Source: Candidatus Uhrbacteria bacterium (GTDB taxonomy: Bacteria > Patescibacteriota > Patescibacteriia > JACRJV01). From it: DNA of 41,247 nucleotides. The position numbers and the translations under genes were made by a program. A model generated the notes under the pieces. It was not told the DNA's origin and ran no database searches. It worked only from the letters and a program-made list of their open reading frames with translations. The stretch's first letter is position 1, and the number at the start of each line of letters is the position of its first letter. Shown piece by piece: positions 3,221-19,645 of the stretch. The stretch is from positions 1-41,247 of the forward strand of contig JACRJV010000006.1 of NCBI GenBank assembly GCA_016215325.1, in the 5' to 3' direction.

Positions 3221-3973
3221 ATGAATATGATCAAAACACTCGAAGGCATAGGGTTTCGAGAGGCTGAGGCGAAAATCTACATCTCTACTCTTGAGCTCGG
3301 CGCTGCCACCGCATCGAATATCGCTAAAAAGGCCCGTATTAAGAGGCCGAGCGCATATGTGCTGTTAGAAGCACTCATCAAAAAAGGCCATATCTCCACC
3401 TTTAAAAAAAGAGGGGTGACGTATTTCGGGGCACAAAACCCAAAACTGGTCATTGAATCCGCGTATGAGAAGGCGACAGAGGCGAAGTCTATTCTGCAGG
3501 ATTTGATGGCATTAGCCCCATCAGAGTTGAAGACAAGGCCGCGAGTGCAGTACTTTGAAGGCCACGATGGTCTTGTGGCTATTATGGAAGATACGTTGCA
3601 GGTGCCGAATAAGAAGATTTACGCCTATGCCGATGTCGAACTGGGGTGGAAAACGCTGGAAGACTATTATCCGACGTACATCAAGAAAAAGAATGAGCGG
3701 AAGATCGCTCCCCATGTCATCCTAGTGGATAATCCAATGGGGCGGCGTTTTAAAGAAAAGAGCCAGGAAGAACAGCGCTCTGTCCGGCTGGTGCCAAAAG
3801 AAAAATTTCCCATGAGCAATGAGATTAACATTTATGATGACAAGGTGTTTATTATTTCGCACAAAGACATGACCGGCGTGATTATCCAAAGTGAAGAAAT
3901 CGCCAATACGCAACGATCGATTTTCAAACTGGCATGGGAGGCCGCAGAAAAGTATGATTCCGCGTGTGTTTAA
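3221..3973 (+). CDS. TrmB-family transcriptional regulator
   Basis: N-terminal winged HTH (GFREAEAKIYISTLELGAATASNIAKKARIKRPSAYVLLEALIKKG) plus C-terminal TrmB-type effector region. Confidence 0.8.
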   Translation: MNMIKTLEGIGFREAEAKIYISTLELGAATASNIAKKARIKRPSAYVLLEALIKKGHISTFKKRGVTYFGAQNPKLVIESAYEKATEAKSILQDLMALAPSELKTRPRVQYFEGHDGLVAIMEDTLQVPNKKIYAYADVELGWKTLEDYYPTYIKKKNERKIAPHVILVDNPMGRRFKEKSQEEQRSVRLVPKEKFPMSNEINIYDDKVFIISHKDMTGVIIQSEEIANTQRSIFKLAWEAAEKYDSACV

Positions 3974-4253: not shown

Positions 4254-5306
4254 ATGTCGAACGTCTTTCTTGAAATCATTTTAATCATTGTTCTTATTAT
4301 CTTGAATGGGTGTTTTTCTTTATCAGAGATTGCCCTGTTAAGTGTTAAAAAAAGTCGGCTCAAATACCTTTCTCAACAAGGAGATAAAAGAGCACAGAAT
4401 GCTCTATTATTAACCCGTAAATCCCCCGAAATGCTTTCAACGATCCAGATTGGCATTACGGCGATTGGAATCTTCGCCGGCGCTTTTGGGGGGGCGACCA
4501 TAGCAGAATACATAGAAGGCTCATTGGTCCAATTTTCTTCTATTGCCGCGTATGGCGAGCCGATCAGTGTTGTGCTCGTTGTTATTGTTATCACGTATGT
4601 ATCTGTCATTATCGGGGAGCTTGTGCCCAAACAACTGGCTTTATCAAATCCGGAAGCGTTATCATTGAAAGTTGCGGGCTTCATCAAAACAATCATGAAC
4701 ATGGCAGCTCCTTTAGTGAAATTGCTTAGCGCTTCGAGCGCTCTATTACTGACGTTGCTTCGCGTCAAACCCGCCTCCGAACAGATTGTCACCGAAGAAG
4801 AAATCAAGCTTTTAATCGCCGAAGGTACAGAAAACGGCGTTTTTGAACGAGCGGAGCAAAAAATGGTGGAACGTATTTTTTATTTGGGAAATAGGCCAAT
4901 CAAAGATTTTATGACACCCCGCCAGGAAGTCGTTTGGCTCGATATCAACGATCCGATCGCGGTTATCAGGAAAAAAATAGCTGGCAGTGATCGATCTGTT
5001 TTCCCAGTTTCCAATGGCAACATTAATAACAACATCGGCGCTATTGAAATCAAGGATGTTCTCACGCATGTATTTGATCGCGGACTTGAACACATAGAAC
5101 TACGGTCGCTAGTACAGCCTGTCTTGCGCATTGAGTCTGATGTCCCGTCTCTTGTGGCCATTGAGCGACTGAAAAGATCCTCGATTAGCATCGTGCTGAT
5201 AACCGAAAAAATCACAAATAAAATTGTTGGTATCGTCAGCTTTCACGACATCCTTGAGGCCATTGTAGGGGAATTTTACAATGAATTATACCATGACCGT
5301 GGTTAA
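4254..5306 (+). CDS. CNNM/DUF21 transmembrane protein with CBS domains (CorB/HlyC-like)
   Basis: ILNGCFSLSEIALLSVKKSRLKYL...; MVERIFYLGNRPIKDFMTPRQEVVWLD CBS motif. Confidence 0.85.
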   Translation: MSNVFLEIILIIVLIILNGCFSLSEIALLSVKKSRLKYLSQQGDKRAQNALLLTRKSPEMLSTIQIGITAIGIFAGAFGGATIAEYIEGSLVQFSSIAAYGEPISVVLVVIVITYVSVIIGELVPKQLALSNPEALSLKVAGFIKTIMNMAAPLVKLLSASSALLLTLLRVKPASEQIVTEEEIKLLIAEGTENGVFERAEQKMVERIFYLGNRPIKDFMTPRQEVVWLDINDPIAVIRKKIAGSDRSVFPVSNGNINNNIGAIEIKDVLTHVFDRGLEHIELRSLVQPVLRIESDVPSLVAIERLKRSSISIVLITEKITNKIVGIVSFHDILEAIVGEFYNELYHDRG

Positions 5307-5694
5307 ACTCATGGACGCATCATTTGATGCTGTATCCATTCTGCCTATGCTATTTATCATTAAAGTATTCATTTCTGCTCTTATCATCGCCCTCGTTTCA
5401 GAACTGGGAAAACGGTTTAGCGCCGTTGCCGCTATTCTCGCCTCTCTTCCCCTTACGTCCATTCTTGCGATCCTCTGGCTCTATTATGATACAAAAAATG
5501 TTGAAACAATCCGCGCGCTCTCTCTCAATATCTTTTGGGCGGTACTCCCTTCGCTATTGTTTTTTATCGCACTCCCATCTTTTCTCAAGTGGGGCATGAA
5601 GTTTGAGTGGGCAATGTTTGGTGCTTCCATCGTGATGGTGCTTGGGTACACCGCTTATCTGTTTGTGTTAAAAAAATTCGGCATTGCGATATAA
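5281..5694 (+). CDS. Small integral membrane protein, DUF3147-like
   Basis: Four hydrophobic segments; GKRFSAVAAILASLPLTSILAILWLYYDT. Confidence 0.55.
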   Translation: MNYTMTVVKLMDASFDAVSILPMLFIIKVFISALIIALVSELGKRFSAVAAILASLPLTSILAILWLYYDTKNVETIRALSLNIFWAVLPSLLFFIALPSFLKWGMKFEWAMFGASIVMVLGYTAYLFVLKKFGIAI

Positions 5695-5708
5695 CAAGGA
5701 CCATGACC

Positions 5709-5750
5709 TTGACATCTTCGCGACAGTACAGTATTATACTAGTATACTAG
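5709..5750 (+). promoter_or_regulatory. trp promoter and TrpR operator
   Basis: TTGACA (5709-5714), 17-nt spacer, TATTAT (5732-5737), then CTAGTATACTAG (5739-5750), a perfect palindrome with the CTAG-N4-CTAG layout of trp operators. Confidence 0.8.
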
Positions 5751-5755
5751 AACAT

Positions 5756-6013
5756 ATGCACAACCCGCACATTACCGAATTGGTTGAGGCCATTGGCCGC
5801 CTCAAAAAGAACGATATTATACTCGCCTTCTTAAAAAATATTCTCACCCCGGCGGAGCTGGATGAAATCGCCACTCGGTTACAGATTTTTAAACTGCTCA
5901 AAAAAGGAGTTCCTCAGCGGGAAGTGGCCGAAAAACTCGGCGTGGGCATTGCCACCGTCAGCCGCGGGGCGCGGGAGTTAAAATATGGTGGACCAGGATT
6001 AAAAAATCTATGA
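5756..6013 (+). CDS. trpR: TrpR-family repressor
   Basis: LTPAELDEIATRLQIFKLLKKGVPQREVAEKLGVGIATVSRGARELKYG; TrpR HTH; operator upstream and trp genes downstream. Confidence 0.85.
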   Translation: MHNPHITELVEAIGRLKKNDIILAFLKNILTPAELDEIATRLQIFKLLKKGVPQREVAEKLGVGIATVSRGARELKYGGPGLKNL

Positions 6014-6075
6014 AGCAATCGATGAGTGCAATACAATGGTGGTGGACGATTTCTCAATCGCAACAGGGGTGTTGA
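6010..6075 (+). CDS. trpL: Trp leader peptide MKQSMSAIQWWWTISQSQQGC
   Basis: ATG overlaps the trpR stop (ATGA); TGG TGG TGG at 6037-6045; stop TGA 6073-6075; followed by antiterminator/terminator. Confidence 0.8.
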   Translation: MKQSMSAIQWWWTISQSQQGC

Positions 6076-6125
6076 TGGGATGTACTCGCGTGATTGCTCC
6101 CACTCCTCGGTTGCCGAGGTTTTTT
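6061..6125 (+). terminator. trp attenuator (antiterminator/terminator pair)
   Basis: Terminator CCTCGG-ttg-CCGAGG-TTTTTT (6105-6125); alternative pairing CAACAGGGGTG (6061-6071) with CACTCCTCGGTTG (6101-6113). Confidence 0.8.
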
Positions 6126-6145
6126 GTTTGTCCTCTGCCGTACTT

Positions 6146-7660
6146 ATGATCAACTATCAAACCATTCGCGCGGGCTCGCAGCAAATGCTGGAAGGGTCAA
6201 GTGTGTTCCCATACCAACAGCCGCATCTCATCTTCCAGCGTCTCTATCGTGCGCATGCGCACAAATTCTTGCTGGAGTCCAAAGACATCTCGCCGGTGTA
6301 TGGGCGCATGAGCCTGATCGGCATCGATCCGGTGTTGAAGATCACCGGCAAGGATGAAAAGTTTTGTATCGAATCACTCAATGAGCGCGCCTCCCTCTAC
6401 GCGAAGCATCTTGGGGAACATCAGCCCCCCTTGTGTGAAAGATTGGAACGTTCTGAGCATCGTATGGAGGGGGGTATCCGCCGGCAGAGCGGGGCGGTTG
6501 AGGAAACCGAGCGGTCAAAACAGCAAAATATTGTCCAGCTCATCCGCACGATTATCCAAACATTTTCGGTGGAAGAAAAAACATTTTTGGGGCTCTATGG
6601 CGCCTTCAGTTATGATGTGATCCGCCAATTTGAGGACATTGGCAGCACTCTGCCGGAAAACGATATCAATGACTTTACGTTTTTCCTCTACGATACTTTT
6701 CTGCTGTTTGATCATCTCAAACAGAGAAATGAAATTATTGTGTATCGGAGAACGACGCAAGAGTGCGAGCGCAACATCAGCAGCATCCAATCATATATTA
6801 TCGGCGAACAACCCGCGGATGCGCAATCGTACCAGATCCGGGAACCCCTGTTTGCACTTGATCAGCAAGCGTACGAGGGTTTGGTAGGCGCTGCTAAGCA
6901 ATATGCCGAGCAAGGGGAACTGTTTGAGGTGGTGTTTTCCAACACCTTGACCGCTCGCTTCGATGGGAATCCTTTTGCCCTGTACCTCGCCTACCGCAAT
7001 GCCAATCCTTCCCCGTATCTCTTTTACATGGATTTCGGCACAGAGCAGTTGGTGGGAGCGTCGCCGGAGATGATGGTGCGATGCGAGCGGGGGGTTGTGA
7101 GCCTTCGGCCCATTTCTGGGACGGCCAAACGAGGAGAGGATCCGGTCGAAGACCACGAGAATATGCTTTTACTTCTATCTGATCCCAAAGAGCGGGCAGA
7201 ATTGGATATGTTGATCGACCTCGGGCGGAATGATTTAAGCCGCGTGTGCGAACCGGGTGTTGCGATCACCGATTACCGCTTTGTCGAAAAATATTCCCGC
7301 GTGATGCACACGGTGGCGCATCTCACCGGGAAATTGCGGGCAGACTATACCGCGCTGGACGCCTTGATCGCTTGTTTGAATGCGGGAACTTTGACCGGTG
7401 CCCCGAAGGTTGCGGCCATGCGGATGATTGAACGACACGAAAAAGAACGCCGCGGCTATTATGGCGGCACGATTGGGTATCTCACGTTCTCCGGCGACAT
7501 GGACACCGGCATCATCATCCGGACAGCCCATATCAAAGGGAATGTCTTGCGATTCCAGGTGGGGGCAACGCTCCTGTATGATTCGGTGCCAGAAAAAGAA
7601 TACCAGGAAACACTGAATAAAGCAGATGCGTTTTTAAAAACGTTTTCGAGTAGTCGTTAG
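6146..7660 (+). CDS. trpE: Anthranilate synthase component I
   Basis: Chorismate-binding domain motifs: LVGASPEMMVRCERGVVSLRPISGTAKRGE, AELDMLIDLGRNDLSRV, GAPKVAAMRMIE. Confidence 0.93.
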   Translation: MINYQTIRAGSQQMLEGSSVFPYQQPHLIFQRLYRAHAHKFLLESKDISPVYGRMSLIGIDPVLKITGKDEKFCIESLNERASLYAKHLGEHQPPLCERLERSEHRMEGGIRRQSGAVEETERSKQQNIVQLIRTIIQTFSVEEKTFLGLYGAFSYDVIRQFEDIGSTLPENDINDFTFFLYDTFLLFDHLKQRNEIIVYRRTTQECERNISSIQSYIIGEQPADAQSYQIREPLFALDQQAYEGLVGAAKQYAEQGELFEVVFSNTLTARFDGNPFALYLAYRNANPSPYLFYMDFGTEQLVGASPEMMVRCERGVVSLRPISGTAKRGEDPVEDHENMLLLLSDPKERAELDMLIDLGRNDLSRVCEPGVAITDYRFVEKYSRVMHTVAHLTGKLRADYTALDALIACLNAGTLTGAPKVAAMRMIERHEKERRGYYGGTIGYLTFSGDMDTGIIIRTAHIKGNVLRFQVGATLLYDSVPEKEYQETLNKADAFLKTFSSSR

Positions 7661-7697
7661 CGAACCCCGTGTTTCGCAATCTAAATAGTTCTGTGAT

Positions 7698-8264
7698 ATG
7701 CGCTACAAGAATATCCTCATCATCGACAATTTTGATTCGTTCACCTTTAACCTGGCGGATTATTTTAAGCAGTTGGGCTGCATCGTCCACGTGTATCGTA
7801 ATGCCATCGATCCGCAAGTGATCGAAACAATCGCCCCCGACCTGATCGCCCTCTCCCCCGGGCCGTCGGTGCCGAAAAATGCCGGCAATCTCATGAAAAT
7901 TATCGAGCAGTATTATTCCCGCTATCCGATGTTTGGGGTCTGCTTGGGGCATGAAGCCTTGATCGAATATTTTGGAGGGTCGCTTAAATTTGTCGACCCC
8001 GTGCATGGGAGATCATCAAAAATACATCATGATGGCAAAGGGATATTCCAAGGGGTCGATCAGGATTTTGATGCCGGGCGGTATCATTCGTTGGCGGCAG
8101 ACGCTGTACCAGATTGTTTTGAAGTGTCGGCAACAACCGGAGATCTTGTGATGGCCATCCGCCATAAGAGCTTGCCCATTGATGGGGTGCAGTTCCATCC
8201 CGAGTCGGTGCTTACCATGAAGAAAGGGAATGGGTTTCGGATGATTGAAAATCTTATCACATGA
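7698..8264 (+). CDS. trpG: Anthranilate synthase component II (glutamine amidotransferase)
   Basis: IDNFDSFTFNLADYF, MFGVCLGHEALIEYFGG, QFHPES. Confidence 0.93.
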   Translation: MRYKNILIIDNFDSFTFNLADYFKQLGCIVHVYRNAIDPQVIETIAPDLIALSPGPSVPKNAGNLMKIIEQYYSRYPMFGVCLGHEALIEYFGGSLKFVDPVHGRSSKIHHDGKGIFQGVDQDFDAGRYHSLAADAVPDCFEVSATTGDLVMAIRHKSLPIDGVQFHPESVLTMKKGNGFRMIENLIT

Positions 8265-10507
8265 CTCTGCTTTCATTTCTTCAAAAAAGTATTGCCGGAC
8301 AAATCACTGCCCAAGCGCAGATGGAATATTTGCGGACCATGCCGGATCTCACGGCCGAAGAGTTAGCCTCTGTGGGACGATTTTTGCAAACGCAAATGGC
8401 GAGTACACTGCGTCTTCCTGATGCCATTGATGTTTGTGGGACCGGAGGGTCGGGGTTGCCCAGAATCAATACCTCCACCATTGCGGCGTTTATCCTCGCC
8501 CGTATGGGTGTTGGGGTCGCCAAACATGGGAACCGTGCGGCCAGCGGTCGGTTTGGGAGCTTTGATCTCCTCGAGTCTCTCGGGATCGAATTTTCTAATG
8601 ACGTTGTTGAAATCGAAAAAAAATATAAAAAAGAACATTTAGCATTTTTGTTTGCTCCCTTGTTTCATCCGGTAATGAAACATTTTGCCGAAGCTCGCAA
8701 ACAAGTCGGCAAACCCACTTTTTTTAATTTATTGGGGCCGCTCTTGAATCCCGCAAATCCCAAGCGACAAATTATTGGCACGACGTTTAAGGACAAAATG
8801 ATGCTGATCGCTCGAACGTGCCGATTGCTTGGGAAAGAGAAAGTTTATGTTGTGTGCGGGCACGACGGCTTGGATGAGATAACGCTTACGGGCCTCACTT
8901 TTGTCACCGAACTTTCCTATGGGCGTATTCGTTCCTATACAATTCACCCCAAAGATTTTGGAGTATCGGTAGCGACGTTTGAACAAATACAAGGCGGAGA
9001 TGCGTCTGTGAACACACAGATCGCCCGCGAGATTTTTGACGGCACATGCACAACGCGTCATCGAGACTTAGTGCTCATCAATGTCGCTCTCGCACTCCGG
9101 TTGGTTGATCGGGTAAAAACACTCGAAGAAGGATATCGGATGGCGTTGGATGCCACACAGATGCCGAGCATTCTTCGCACCATCGTTGATCACAAACGGC
9201 GTGAAGTAGAACAACGCAAACAAAAACAACCTCTCAAACACTTCATCAACACCATCCGCCCGTCAACACGAAGTTTTGCCGCTGCTATTGGCAACAAAAG
9301 GCTCTCGGTAATCGCCGAAGTCAAAAGAGCATCGCCGAGCGCAGGAATGATCGGCAAGGGTCGATTTTCTCCTATCGCAATTGCAAAACAGTATGAACGG
9401 TCCGGCGCTGATGCAATCTCGGTGGTGTGCGATCAGGAATTTTTCAAGGGGAGTCTGCGGCATCTCCAGGCCGTCGCTCGACAGACCACCCGAACCCCGC
9501 TGTTGTGCAAAGATTTTATTATCGATGAGTATCAAATTTATCAAGCGCGCAAACATGGTGCGGATGCGATCCTGCTGATTGCCGCACTCTTGAGTGTGCA
9601 GCAGATCAATCGATTTATTGCCATTGCTAAGAGGTTGAACATGGCGGCACTGTGCGAAGTACATACGTTGGAGGAGATCAACAAAGTATTAAAAACTCCC
9701 GCAACGATTATTGGGATTAATAATCGCGATCTCCATACCTTTACCATTGATCTAAATACTACGGCCAAACTCGCTCAACATATTCCCGCGGATGCTAGTA
9801 TTGTTTCGGAAAGCGGGTTTGCCTCCAGGGCCGATGTTGACCGCGCGCGCGGCACTGTCGATGCAGTGCTCGTCGGTACGGCGCTCATAAGTGGCAAGAA
9901 TATTCGAGATCTTACGGGCACCAAACTCAAAATTTGCGGTGTGCGGTCAGTACAAGAGGCAAGATATTGTGAACAACTGGGTGTGGATTTTATCGGACTC
10001 AACGTTGTGCCAACCAGTAAACGATGTGTTGACGAAAAAACAGCGCAAGCGATTTGCGCTTCGGTGGACGAGATCGCTACTGTTGGTGTGTTTCAAGATC
10101 AATCGATTGCATTCGTGAACCGACTCGCCCGAAAACTCAACTTAGATTATATCCAATTATCAGGGGATGAATCACTTTCATTTGTAAAAAAGTGTTGCCG
10201 TCCGGTGATCAAGGCAATCTCGGTGAACACAAAAAAAGATTTAACAAAGGCCGCGAAGTATCTGCCCCACGTCGCCCATATTCTCTTGGATAGTCCGACC
10301 CCCGGCAGCGGCAATCAGATCCCTGTCGATTTAAAGAATGTACCGTATCCATTCTTGCTTGCCGGAGGGATTACGCCCTCTACTGTAGGGCGAGTTGTTC
10401 GACAGTCTAACCCCACGGGCGTTGACCTTGCCAGCGGAGTTGAGACGAACGGAAGAATTGATTTGGAGAAGGTTCAGAAGATTGTGCGTAAACTTAAAAT
10501 CATATGA
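8261..10507 (+). CDS. trpDCF: Fused TrpD-TrpC-TrpF (phosphoribosyltransferase / IGP synthase / PRA isomerase)
   Basis: DVCGTGGSGLPRINTST (TrpD); VIAEVKRASPSAGMI...IIGINNRDLHTF (TrpC); LKICGVRSVQEA...LLAGGITPSTV (TrpF), in one 748-aa ORF. Confidence 0.92.
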   Translation: MTLLSFLQKSIAGQITAQAQMEYLRTMPDLTAEELASVGRFLQTQMASTLRLPDAIDVCGTGGSGLPRINTSTIAAFILARMGVGVAKHGNRAASGRFGSFDLLESLGIEFSNDVVEIEKKYKKEHLAFLFAPLFHPVMKHFAEARKQVGKPTFFNLLGPLLNPANPKRQIIGTTFKDKMMLIARTCRLLGKEKVYVVCGHDGLDEITLTGLTFVTELSYGRIRSYTIHPKDFGVSVATFEQIQGGDASVNTQIAREIFDGTCTTRHRDLVLINVALALRLVDRVKTLEEGYRMALDATQMPSILRTIVDHKRREVEQRKQKQPLKHFINTIRPSTRSFAAAIGNKRLSVIAEVKRASPSAGMIGKGRFSPIAIAKQYERSGADAISVVCDQEFFKGSLRHLQAVARQTTRTPLLCKDFIIDEYQIYQARKHGADAILLIAALLSVQQINRFIAIAKRLNMAALCEVHTLEEINKVLKTPATIIGINNRDLHTFTIDLNTTAKLAQHIPADASIVSESGFASRADVDRARGTVDAVLVGTALISGKNIRDLTGTKLKICGVRSVQEARYCEQLGVDFIGLNVVPTSKRCVDEKTAQAICASVDEIATVGVFQDQSIAFVNRLARKLNLDYIQLSGDESLSFVKKCCRPVIKAISVNTKKDLTKAAKYLPHVAHILLDSPTPGSGNQIPVDLKNVPYPFLLAGGITPSTVGRVVRQSNPTGVDLASGVETNGRIDLEKVQKIVRKLKII

Positions 10508-11739
10508 AGTCGCTCAAAACGTATATCCTCAACAAGTCTGGCCATTTCGGGCAATTTGGCGGCCGGTATATTCCCGAGCTCTTGATCCCTATTATGGAAG
10601 AACTCGAGGCGGCCTTCTATGAGGCAATCAAAGACAAGGGATTCAAGGCAGAGCTTGCTGACTTATATTACAACTATTCTGGGCGGCCGACGCCACTCTA
10701 TTTCTGCAGCAATCTGACAAAAAAACTCGGGGGCGCAAAGATTTTTCTTAAGAACGAGGGGCTCAATCATACTGGAGCGCATAAAATCAATCATTGTTTG
10801 GGGCAGGCGTTGCTCGCCAAAAAGCTTGGGAAGAAGCGATTGATCGCCGAAACCGGAGCAGGGCAACATGGGTTGGCTACCGCGACTGTGGCGGCCAAGT
10901 TTGGACTTGAGTGCACCATTTACATGGGCGCCAAAGACTACCAGCGACAACTGCCCAATGTGTTTTTTATGGAGCGCCTGGGAGCGACGGTGATTCCCGT
11001 GCAGCACGGCGGACAAATACTGCGAGATGCCATCAATGCCGCGCTCAAAGACCTCATTGCCAACCCAACAGATACACATTACTTGTTGGGGACCGTTTGC
11101 GGGCCGCATCCGTACCCGGTGATGAATACGTATTTCCAAAGCATTGTTGGGCGTGAAGTTCGGACGCAACTGATATCGCAAACAGGCAAACTCCCGGATT
11201 ACCTCGTGGCCTGCGTTGGAGGCGGAAGCAATGCGATGGGGCTCTTTTATGAATTTTTGGATGATAAAAGGGTGCGCATGATTGGTGTGGAAGCGGGCGG
11301 AAAACGGATTCTAGAAAACGACAAAAAGTGTGAGCATGCCGCCCGATTCCAAACCGGCTCTGTTGGCATTGTGGAAGGATTTAAATCGTATTTTTTGCAG
11401 AACCACGACGGACAAATCAAAGAGACATCGAGTATATCCGCAGGGCTTGATTATTCGGGGGTGGGGCCGCAGATTGCCTACCTCCATGATACCGGACGGA
11501 TCCGAATGACCTATGCACGAGACAAGGATGCGCTTACTGCCTATGCAATGTTAGCACAAGAAGAGGGGATTATTGCGGCGCTAGAGTCCTGCCATGCTCT
11601 GTCCCAGGTCATCAAACTTGCACCAACGCTCAGTAAAGATAAAATTATTGTTTTTAATTGTTCTGGTCGTGGAGACAAAGACTTATTTATCGTGAGCAAA
11701 CAATTTGGGTTTGATATTGGGCAGAATACGGGGCGATGA
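10504..11739 (+). CDS. trpB: Tryptophan synthase beta chain
   Basis: GRPTPLYFCSNLTKKLGGAKIFLKNEGLNHTGAHKINH; ETGAGQHGLATA. Confidence 0.95.
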   Translation: MKSLKTYILNKSGHFGQFGGRYIPELLIPIMEELEAAFYEAIKDKGFKAELADLYYNYSGRPTPLYFCSNLTKKLGGAKIFLKNEGLNHTGAHKINHCLGQALLAKKLGKKRLIAETGAGQHGLATATVAAKFGLECTIYMGAKDYQRQLPNVFFMERLGATVIPVQHGGQILRDAINAALKDLIANPTDTHYLLGTVCGPHPYPVMNTYFQSIVGREVRTQLISQTGKLPDYLVACVGGGSNAMGLFYEFLDDKRVRMIGVEAGGKRILENDKKCEHAARFQTGSVGIVEGFKSYFLQNHDGQIKETSSISAGLDYSGVGPQIAYLHDTGRIRMTYARDKDALTAYAMLAQEEGIIAALESCHALSQVIKLAPTLSKDKIIVFNCSGRGDKDLFIVSKQFGFDIGQNTGR

Positions 11740-11744
11740 AACTA

Positions 11745-11894
11745 GTGCACCCCGGCGGGATATTCTTCTGGCGACACTCGCCGCCCCTGCGAGGCGGCTC
11801 ACTGCAAGCCTCGCTCGCTCTCCCGACCTTTGGTCGGGAACCGTGCCCGCTCACTTCGGTTAAGCCGCCAGAAGAATATCCCGCCGGGGTGCAC
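11745..11894. mobile_element. MITE-like palindromic element with 29-bp perfect terminal inverted repeats
   Basis: GTGCACCCCGGCGGGATATTCTTCTGGCG (11745-11773) and its exact reverse complement (11866-11894). Confidence 0.65.
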
Positions 11895-11940
11895 TCGGTC
11901 GCATACCGGAGTTCGTCTTTATTTGTTGAGTTAATTTTTA

Positions 11941-12680
11941 TGAGAAATAAGGTGATGACTCACGTGGTGGCGGGGTATCCGACTATTGATGAGTGCGAAA
12001 GGATCGTTTTAGCGATGGCTCAGAGTGCTGTTGCTTTTATTGAGATCCAGATGCCATTCTCTGACCCCATTGCGGATGGGCCGACCATCATGTACGCCAA
12101 TGAGCAGGCCCTCTCCCATGGAATGACAACGAAAAAATGTTTTCAATTGATTGGGCGGTTAAAAAAGAAGATCACCACACCGATATTGGTCATGACATAC
12201 TATAATATTGCATTTCGGTATGGTTTGGAGAGGTTTTGTAAAAGGGCGAAATCGTGCGGGGTGTATGGTCTTATTATCCCCGATATCCCGATTGATGAGG
12301 AGCAATACGATCATTATCTGAGCTGTTGCAAAAAATATCGCTTGCATCCGATCCAAGTGATATCGCCCATCACGCCGGAGCGAAGGTTAAAACAAATCGC
12401 CCGAGTAGCCAGTGGATTTGTGTATTGCGTATCCACATTCGGGACAACAGGCGCGCGCAGTACGCTCAACCCCGATGTCCGGGCGTATCTCAAGAAGGTA
12501 AAAAAACACATTAAGATACCGTTAGCGTTAGGCTTTGGCATCTCAAACAGAGGACAAGTATTGGCGGCACTCAAGACTGCCGATATCGCGGTGGTGGGCA
12601 GCAAACTTATCAATATCGTGGGGTCAACGAAAGGTGATAAGGTGAGCGCGGTGAAAAACTTTTTAAGGAACATCATTTAG
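11941..12680 (+). CDS. trpA: Tryptophan synthase alpha chain (ORF is open from 11736 through the palindromic element)
   Basis: MTHVVAGYPTIDE...FIEIQMPFSDPIADGPTIM...GLIIPDIPIDE...GFVYCVSTFGTTGARS. Confidence 0.9.
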
Positions 12681-13872: not shown

Positions 13873-14625
13873 CTACTTGCTGGGCGCCTGCTTCCACATC
13901 GACCAAAACCACTTGCGGTAACTGTCCGCAAGCTCCTGACTATGGATGACAAAAAATACGATATTCTCGTCAATTTTTTTAACGTGGAGGCCTGTATACG
14001 TCACGACATACTCTCCGTAGATTCCAATCCCCGAATTGGTCGAATATTCTTTTGGTAGAAAGCGATATTGGAGATCAGCGGGGAAGTGTTCTACAAAATT
14101 TGGTAATCGTTCTCGTACCTCACTATCGAATAATTGAATGAACTTAAGTTTTTTTCGTTTTGCTTCGCGGAAGAATGCATCTCGACTGGCATCCAGCCGT
14201 GGGTCAAACCACCCGCCTTTAGCGCCGATAAAATAACAGTCGCCGCCCACGCGCAGCATATCGCGAAAAATGTTTTTCTGCCCTTCGATGCCGCGGTAGA
14301 TATACGCCTCCTCCCGCGCCAGGCGAGCTCTAAACTTTTGCTTGAGTGCGGGAAGGATTTTTTGGAGTTTTTCTTGCTTTTCGGCGATCATTTCCATGAG
14401 CTTGTCAGGATCCACCGCGTTATAGAGGGTTTTGGTTTGTGAGAAAATCTCAAAGCAGAGGCCCTTATCGATCAAACGCGCTGTCGCATCGTAGGCATTA
14501 CGTCGGTTAATTTTTGTCGCAATGGCAATAGCACTCACCGATGACTCTCCTCGTTCAATGAGGAACTCGTAGATTTTTCCTTCGTTCGGGCTCAAACCTA
14601 GATCGTCGAATGTGTCTTGGACCAT
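13873..14625 (-). CDS. TrmB-family regulator (paralogue of 18893-19645)
   Basis: LGLSPNEGKIYEFLIERGESSVSAIAIATKINRRNAYD...; shared FIGAKGGWFD and YRFLPKEYST motifs. Confidence 0.8.
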   Translation of the reverse strand: MVQDTFDDLGLSPNEGKIYEFLIERGESSVSAIAIATKINRRNAYDATARLIDKGLCFEIFSQTKTLYNAVDPDKLMEMIAEKQEKLQKILPALKQKFRARLAREEAYIYRGIEGQKNIFRDMLRVGGDCYFIGAKGGWFDPRLDASRDAFFREAKRKKLKFIQLFDSEVRERLPNFVEHFPADLQYRFLPKEYSTNSGIGIYGEYVVTYTGLHVKKIDENIVFFVIHSQELADSYRKWFWSMWKQAPSK

Positions 14626-18892: not shown

Positions 18893-19645
18893 ATGTATCG
18901 AGAAGTATTAGAAGAAATCGGCCTCTCTCCGAATGAGGCAAAGATCTATGAGGGGTTGTTGGACATTGGCATTGCTTCGGTCCCGGCGATTTCTCTCAAA
19001 ATCGGCGTGCATAAACGCAATATCTACGACATTATTCCCAAGCTCTTAAAGAAGGGTCTGATTTATCAAATCGCGGATACCAAAGAAAACCTCTATGCCG
19101 CATTGGAGCCTGAGAAGCTCTCGGATTTGATCTGGGAAAAGCAGGCGAAACTTAAAAATATTTTGCCAGCCCTGCAAGAGCAATTTAAAAAGACCGCAAC
19201 AGGAGAAGCGGTCTATATCTATAAAGGAGTGGAGGGGTTTAAAAATTATTTGCGCGATATCCTGACGGTTGGTGAAGACGTTTATTTTGTCGGAGCAAAG
19301 GGGGGATGGTTTGACGCGGACCTCCACATATTTATTCAGAAATTTTTACGCCAGGCGCGGGAGAAAAAAATTAAGTACTTTCATATCTTTGATGCGGAGG
19401 TCAAAAAATTTGCCCCTGACCTTTTGAAGGAATTGGGCAAGCCGTATCGGTTCTTACCCAAACAATACTCAACCACAGGGGCTATCGATATTTTTGGAGA
19501 CCACGTGGTGACGTTCTCGGGGCTCACACTCAAAGATATCACGGAGGATGTTACGCTCGTTGTTATCGTCAATAAAAAATTGGCGGATTGTTATCGGACA
19601 TGGTTCAAATTTATTTGGGATCATTGTCGTTCTTCTTCGGTTTGA
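18893..19645 (+). CDS. TrmB-family regulator (paralogue of 13873-14625)
   Basis: IGLSPNEAKIYEGLLDIGIASVPAISLKIGVHKRNIYD...FVGAKGGWFD...YRFLPKQYST. Confidence 0.8.
   Translation: MYREVLEEIGLSPNEAKIYEGLLDIGIASVPAISLKIGVHKRNIYDIIPKLLKKGLIYQIADTKENLYAALEPEKLSDLIWEKQAKLKNILPALQEQFKKTATGEAVYIYKGVEGFKNYLRDILTVGEDVYFVGAKGGWFDADLHIFIQKFLRQAREKKIKYFHIFDAEVKKFAPDLLKELGKPYRFLPKQYSTTGAIDIFGDHVVTFSGLTLKDITEDVTLVVIVNKKLADCYRTWFKFIWDHCRSSSV

Follow-up and report, generated by a model that had tools for sequence, protein, structure and literature searches.

The stretch of DNA analyzed here, referred to as the window, is the 41,247-nt contig JACRJV010000006.1 of the uncultivated, ultra-small Candidatus Uhrbacteria bacterium (GCA_016215325.1, positions 1 to 41,247 of the forward strand). 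By Pfam annotation it carries a trp operon in the order trpR, trpE, trpG, a trpD-trpC-trpF fusion, trpB and trpA, with every gene on the plus strand. The first gene, trpR (5756..6013), encodes an 85-residue Trp repressor (PF01371, E 4e-23; structural alignment to Escherichia coli TrpR, E 1e-9). It is followed by trpE, encoding anthranilate synthase component I (6146..7660; PF00425, E 4e-75, and PF04715), trpG, encoding the anthranilate synthase glutamine amidotransferase (7698..8264; PF00117), a single fused trpD-trpC-trpF ORF (8261..10507; PF00591, PF00218 and PF00697 in that order), trpB, encoding the tryptophan synthase beta chain (10504..11739; PF00291), and an ORF for the alpha chain, trpA (11736..12680; PF00290 at residues 70-308). 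Because the PF00290 domain begins approximately 70 codons into the latter ORF, the true trpA start probably lies further downstream. The spurious-looking N-terminal extension of this ORF arises from a perfect 30-bp inverted repeat (11744-11895), situated between trpB and the trpA domain with its arms 92 nt apart; the repeat occurs once in the window and was not found in the related loci that we fetched. The window also contains three genes for TrmB-like regulators of approximately 250 residues (3221-3973, 13873-14625 and 18893-19645), the third of which was recognized by eye only.

Stop and start codons overlap as ATGA at four junctions of the operon, namely trpR/leader, trpG/trpD, trpF/trpB and trpB/trpA. 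The recurrence of this arrangement implies that TGA is read as a stop, and that a leader ORF coupled to trpR, described below, conforms to the local habit. Part of the Gracilibacteria uses genetic code 25, in which TGA encodes glycine. We rejected this code for the window on the basis of the ATGA junctions throughout the operon and of a release factor 2 gene, prfB, which is present in the genome and scores above its cut-off.

Upstream of trpR lies a sigma-70-type promoter, TTGACA-17-TATTAT (5709..5737, plus strand), which matches the consensus at 11 of 12 positions; similar promoters precede trpR in related loci. A palindrome absent from an earlier, preliminary description of the window, ATACTAGTATACTAGAAC (5736..5753; CTAG-N4-CTAG), lies where the −10 box ends, over the start region, and shares 14 of 18 positions with the trp operator core of E. 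coli (shuffle p 0.004). Allowing up to one mismatch, the 1.14 Mb assembly has no other site of this type, and operator-like sites were found in 17 of 19 related loci. Autoregulation by TrpR at this site is likely, albeit without binding data. The identity of the repressor itself was assessed against NCBIfam, where it scores 59.8 bits with TIGR01321, below the equivalog cut-off of 67.25; this is still its best family, ahead of the YerC family TIGR02531 at 43.5 bits, above the latter's cut-off of 42.2. In a structure-sequence alignment, the Arg, Thr and Arg with which E. coli TrpR contacts Trp (R54, T81 and R84) are conserved. The genome encodes a second, YerC-like member of the TrpR family (G000:C8:34148-34408) that has no Trp leader, and such paralogues are common in the phylum.

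The trpR-trpE leader of the window

Between trpR and trpE lies a 21-codon ORF, MKQSMSAIQWWWTISQSQQGC (6010..6075, plus strand), whose ATG (6010-6012) overlaps the TGA of trpR (6011-6013) and whose own TGA stop is at 6073-6075. Trp-rich leaders occupy the equivalent place in related loci. The ORF includes three consecutive TGG codons (6037..6045), the proposed sensing codons; dinucleotide shuffling of the trpR-trpE intergenic stretch yields a run of this kind within a short ORF in 0.1% of cases (p 0.001). An intrinsic terminator, identified by direct reading and by terminator search, follows at 6105..6125 (dG −8.1). It comprises a 6-bp stem and a 3-nt loop (CCTCGG-TTG-CCGAGG, 6105-6119) followed by T6 (6120-6125). 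The trpE start codon is 70 nt from the leader stop and 20 nt from the terminator, a gap that leaves trpE no room for a promoter of its own. The preliminary description, which was made without database searches, had reported the 21-codon ORF with its TGG triplet and its start on the trpR stop, all of which hold to the base, and a perfect terminator, which likewise holds; its spacing of 21 bp between terminator and trpE was slightly off, as the measured gap to the ATG at 6146 is 20 nt.

The leader stop region can pair with the 5′ arm of this terminator. The 5′ strand of the putative antiterminator (region 2; 6054..6081) spans the leader stop codon and forms a duplex with region 3 (6097..6113), which includes the terminator 5′ arm (6105-6110), at dG −15.8 and p 0.042 for the window alone; the assignment of region 3 is further supported by arm-pairing probabilities. 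Direct reading places the core of region 2, CAACAGGGGTG, at 6061-6071 and its counterpart, CACTCCTCGGTTG, at 6101-6113, the same coordinates at which this pairing had been proposed in advance. The antiterminator is suggestive on the window alone and becomes convincing with the relatives. The minimum-energy fold also contains a small hairpin, CGATT-TCTC-AATCG (6047..6060), which separates the Trp codons from the core of the antiterminator and is a possible pause hairpin, though not established as one.

To model the effect of a stalled ribosome, the RNA 3′ of its downstream edge was folded for each ribosome position, with the edge assumed to lie 12 nt beyond the first base of the A-site codon. 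The terminator forms with a probability of 0.84-0.91 when the edge is at 6040-6043. This falls to 0.19, 0.29 and 0.35 at edges 6049, 6052 and 6055, which correspond to stalls at the three TGG codons and give the lowest values, then rises to 0.66 at 6058 and to 0.97-0.99 from 6061 onward. Moreover, before the 3′ arm has been made, the terminator 5′ arm is sequestered with a probability of 0.92 at the first stall and of 0.12-0.27 once the ribosome has come close to the stop or reached it. In these models, the predicted behavior, in which a stall at 6037-6045 frees the antiterminator and a ribosome at the stop (6073) permits the terminator, is upheld, and folding with masked segments, which had been suggested as a check, behaved as predicted.

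Several qualifications apply. In a shuffle test on the window alone, the equilibrium switch reaches p 0.10. The leader as a whole is not unusually stable (z −0.08), as expected of a region that holds alternative folds. Without a ribosome the outcome is undecided, with terminator probabilities of 0.21, 0.93 or 0.78 depending on where the transcript starts, an ambiguity to which an alternative pairing of 6014-6027 with 6101-6114 contributes. All folding used ViennaRNA at 37 °C and leaves out folding speed and the real temperature of the cell. The mutual exclusivity of antiterminator and terminator is therefore met by folding and comparison together: the statistics of the window alone are modest (p 0.04-0.10), and it is the comparison with relatives that carries conviction.

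Occurrence in related trp operons and across Patescibacteria

A trpE search across the genomes of 84,980 species yielded 32 loci, of which approximately 20 are of a Peregrinibacteria type with similarly ordered trp genes. Thirteen trp operons, the window included, carry the element, 11 as a separate leader and two with Trp codons in the tail of trpR. The separate leaders contain WWW (the window, L074, L076 and L093), WW (L077, L082, L083, L085 and L092), WSWHW (L078) or WWNW (L081), and the Trp run is significant in 10 of the 11 (p ≤0.013). Seven of these 11 leaders have a start codon that overlaps the stop of trpR; in L083 and L092, leader and terminator are present with no trpR immediately before them. 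An intrinsic terminator lies 20-39 nt past the leader stop in all 11. Although the sequences have diverged widely, the antiterminator strand begins 16-27 nt past the first Trp codon and lies at the leader stop in 13 of 13 operons (beginning at +17 in the window); in E. coli trpL, which served as a control, it begins at +19.

Folding of the same 13 operons gave a terminator probability of ≤0.15 at the stall and >0.9 at the stop in ten cases, with one more moving from 0.00 to 0.48. Combined over all 13, Fisher p values are 3e-16 for the antiterminator duplexes and 2e-15 for the equilibrium switch. These values are too small, as the loci are related and not statistically independent, yet the conserved antiterminator effect across the relatives is not in doubt. 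No equilibrium switch was detected in L081, L092, L306, L307 or L315. Such a failure does not rule out attenuation, because the E. coli trpL control fails too (terminator probability 0.94 versus 0.95) while having the same spacing.

Eight close trpE loci (L080, L084, L086, L087, L088, L089, L090 and L091) lack the element, and they also lack a terminator between trpR and trpE. On the trpE tree the distribution of the element requires three state changes, with the element-less loci mostly forming one clade. Its absence from these loci probably reflects loss, as if leader and terminator had disappeared together. The preliminary description had held that related operons without Trp codons or terminator would count against attenuation. 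This is partly borne out, in the eight loci read here as losses; its companion proposal, to compare related trpR-trpE intergenic regions, revealed Trp codons, terminator and antiterminator geometry kept despite divergence. Two loci from bins labelled Deltaproteobacteria, L088 and L104, were considered as carriers and rejected, since neither has trpR or a credible leader upstream of trpE.

The TrpR proteins of the relatives are free of Trp, except for those of L079 and L075 and an incomplete copy in L092. The L079 repressor has a C-terminal extension, AWWQPSTIWQMWS, with four Trp codons (L079 4880-4976), and that of L075 has an extension, KLWRLNPSGRLRE, with one (L075 4877-4965). In both, a terminator lies 25-30 nt past the trpR stop and the antiterminator strand is correctly spaced (p 0.001 and 0.002, respectively). 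Sensing in L075 may be weak, as a single Trp codon is kept. By eye only, the tail in L075 looks like the stand-alone leader found in its sister L074, as though a short deletion had joined the two reading frames. A third candidate fusion, L300, was rejected as a decayed trpR-trpB junction. These tails illustrate a way in which a leader ORF may become part of a regulator; if the merged form is real, a single round of translation would at once produce the repressor and gauge the level of tRNA-Trp.

The window's operon has close counterparts outside its own class. The organism belongs to Patescibacteria and not to Peregrinibacteria, as rplB and 16S group with genomes of the same class, and infB, on the same contig as the operon, is 43-48% identical to its own class versus 40-43% to Peregrinibacteria. 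Its trpE is nested within the Peregrinibacteria group (support 99/99), trpE and trpB are 69-82% identical to Peregrinibacteria, and identity to the Peregrinibacterium L074 is 69% for trpE and 75% for trpR. The simplest reading, and a likely one, is that operon and attenuator were acquired horizontally from Peregrinibacteria; a chimeric contig remains possible, although G+C is fairly even along the window. The L080 genome contains a CNNM gene 65% identical to the one at 4254 in the window, and the stretch 4254-12680, comprising the latter gene and the trp operon, looks foreign to the genome in which it lies.

We also surveyed the region downstream of other trpR genes in the window's class and phylum. 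Twenty further Patescibacteria loci have a trpR-leader-terminator arrangement, and 13 of these 20 switch (duplex Fisher p 1e-13). The cassette precedes trpB (L035, L036, L041, L044 and L283), trpB-like genes (L038, L049 and L295), trpS (L048), Asp/Glu racemase-like genes (L249 and L280, by eye) and other genes too. Leaders such as QFWWWTVSWR, IAWWWTVFWR, HWWTTSLWR, STWLWTV and SWCWTVPPR resemble QWWWTI of the window, a resemblance from which we claim no homology. Automated leader calls in L236, L239, L250, L272, L282 and L296 were dropped as chance, being distant from the trpR stop or without a terminator. In a tree of 114 TrpR-family proteins, a leader accompanies 30 of 48 members on the side of TrpR proper and 1 of the 66 YerC-like ones (p 6e-14), such that the cassette is tied to true TrpR rather than to YerC-like paralogues. 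This division was picked for best association, its branch support is just 73, a few genomes are in twice, and the Peregrinibacteria labels were assigned by hand. The preliminary description had placed an attenuator in a lineage resembling the candidate phyla radiation (CPR), and the lineage holds (Patescibacteria/CPR); the wide spread of the cassette, and the grouping of the operon but not of the organism with Peregrinibacteria, were beyond what it could know.

Two further observations concern gene content. In L278, L283, L313, L314, L319 and others, trpR, leader and terminator stand before trpB or trpS without the full set of trp pathway genes alongside, which suggests Trp-controlled indole salvage or tRNA charging. 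Similar leaders ending in WLWTV (WLLTV in L309) follow trpR in L305, L309 and L310, and are in turn followed by a conserved gene of approximately 195 codons and an AstE-like gene of approximately 240 (by eye), a putative and unexplained Trp-controlled unit. A bolder reading, which we favor by a narrow margin, is that TrpR and its coupled Trp leader constitute an old modular cassette of Patescibacteria, placed before trpE operons, trpB, trpB-like genes and trpS, moved horizontally, including into the organism of the window, and twice merged into the tail of the repressor (L079 and L075).

Proposed mechanism and alternative explanations

We conclude that the window very likely contains a ribosome-mediated transcription attenuator inside a trp operon that begins with trpR (probability approximately 0.9), on the strength of sequence and computation and without experiment. 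This supports the overall reading of trp attenuation in the preliminary description, whose computable checks all proved favorable. Sequence and computation show that the parts are present and conserved, that the two folds exclude one another and that the stall geometry fits; translation of the leader, re-initiation at ATGA, binding of TrpR to the operator and Trp-dependent termination are inferred. In the proposed cycle, the trpR mRNA would come from a single promoter, which Trp-bound TrpR probably represses through 5736-5753, and ribosomes ending trpR would start again on the leader ORF that overlaps it. A shortage of charged tRNA-Trp would stall the ribosome at 6037-6045, leaving 6054-6081 to pair with 6097-6113 and take up the terminator 5′ arm, such that polymerase would continue into trpEGDCFBA. 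When Trp is ample, a ribosome at the stop (6073) would cover the antiterminator strand, and the terminator (6105-6125) would end the transcript after trpR. As trpR lies upstream of the terminator, TrpR would be made with or without attenuation, and one and the same RNA serves as leader transcript and as mRNA for the repressor.

The first alternative is that trpR forms a monocistronic unit ended constitutively by the hairpin, or that the hairpin terminates only in part and fixes the ratio of trpR to trpE, with the WWW ORF being accidental. The hairpin does lie close behind trpR, and eight related operons lack the whole element. Against this, Trp-rich leaders recur at the equivalent site in diverged relatives, with the significant runs given above, and the antiterminator strand is at the leader stop in every case. 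Moreover, trpE would be left without a promoter, and the leader-less loci are without the terminator too. We consider this explanation very unlikely. A second alternative is that the terminator is governed by a T-box, a TRAP-like protein or an RNA-binding TrpR instead of a stalled ribosome. T-boxes and TRAP do serve other trp operons (for TRAP, see PMC7755916). However, no Rfam family, T-box included, reached threshold in the leader of the window or in those of 12 related loci; tandem Trp codons at the right distance are not needed by T-box or TRAP-type systems; and L083 and L092 retain leader and terminator in the absence of an adjacent trpR. This too is very improbable. A mainly translational role for the leader, in trpR-trpE coupling or re-initiation, draws on the ATGA overlaps at four operon junctions, which make coupling common here, but is all but excluded by the T6 terminator between leader and trpE, the 70 nt separating leader stop from trpE start, and a conserved pairing that hits the terminator arm.

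If ribosome-mediated attenuation is correct, some of the most reduced bacteria known retain two-tier control by Trp, through repressor and attenuator, and retain it even on trpB or trpS where the locus has no complete Trp pathway. In organisms beyond the reach of culture, the cassette would also serve as a convenient marker of genes that respond to Trp.

Comparison with known attenuators

Trp attenuation is classical in Proteobacteria. Attenuation by amino-acid-sensing leader peptides has so far been documented in few lineages; in 2010, such systems were stated to be known solely in Proteobacteria and Actinobacteria, in addition to the His leaders of Bacilli reported by the same authors (PMC2965389). 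The leaders of Actinobacteria and Bacilli resemble that of the window in having runs of amino-acid codons followed by a terminator, and differ in belonging to other lineages and in having no linkage to TrpR. We found no report of leader-peptide Trp attenuation in CPR/Patescibacteria in the open-access literature searched, which is weak evidence of absence given that subscription papers were outside its scope.

Chlamydiae offer two points of comparison. Their trpR-IGR-trpBA and trpR-trpB loci also begin with trpR and have a predicted Trp-containing leader before the biosynthetic genes, with a WW peptide in C. felis and a 59-residue peptide in C. trachomatis (PMC3937554). These leaders are, however, long and as yet doubtful and without proof, and that of C. 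trachomatis has no tandem Trp codons, is unvalidated and has been rated a poor attenuator (PMC7755916). Simkania shares the trpR-trpE gene order of the window, with no trpL listed (PMC3937554). The second case is YtgCR of C. trachomatis, in which Trp codons within a repressor-encoding gene sense Trp, as proposed for the repressor tails in L079 and L075. YtgR is trans-acting, and starvation terminates transcription inside its own gene (PMC7755916), whereas the Trp codons in trpR of L079 and L075 would act in cis on a downstream antiterminator.

The closest likeness is to E. coli trpL, which shares a short leader with tandem Trp codons, a similar strand spacing (19 versus 17 nt), a terminator before trpE and a TrpR-type operator on the promoter. 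The window differs in placing trpR first in the same operon with the leader coupled to its stop, in a region 2 strand that spans the leader stop instead of following it, and apparently in lacking a clear conserved 1:2 hairpin, for which the small hairpin at 6047-6060 is the only candidate. It also has no match to the Rfam Trp_leader family, even to E 10, and none of the 12 related loci matches this family at the gathering threshold. The use of the repressor mRNA as the leader transcript is a wiring unlike that of E. coli. While nothing has been shown in a cell, these data suggest that the element very likely works like the E. coli attenuator yet lies outside the Rfam Trp leader family, and that its novelty is that of an operon-internal, repressor-coupled attenuator widespread in Patescibacteria.
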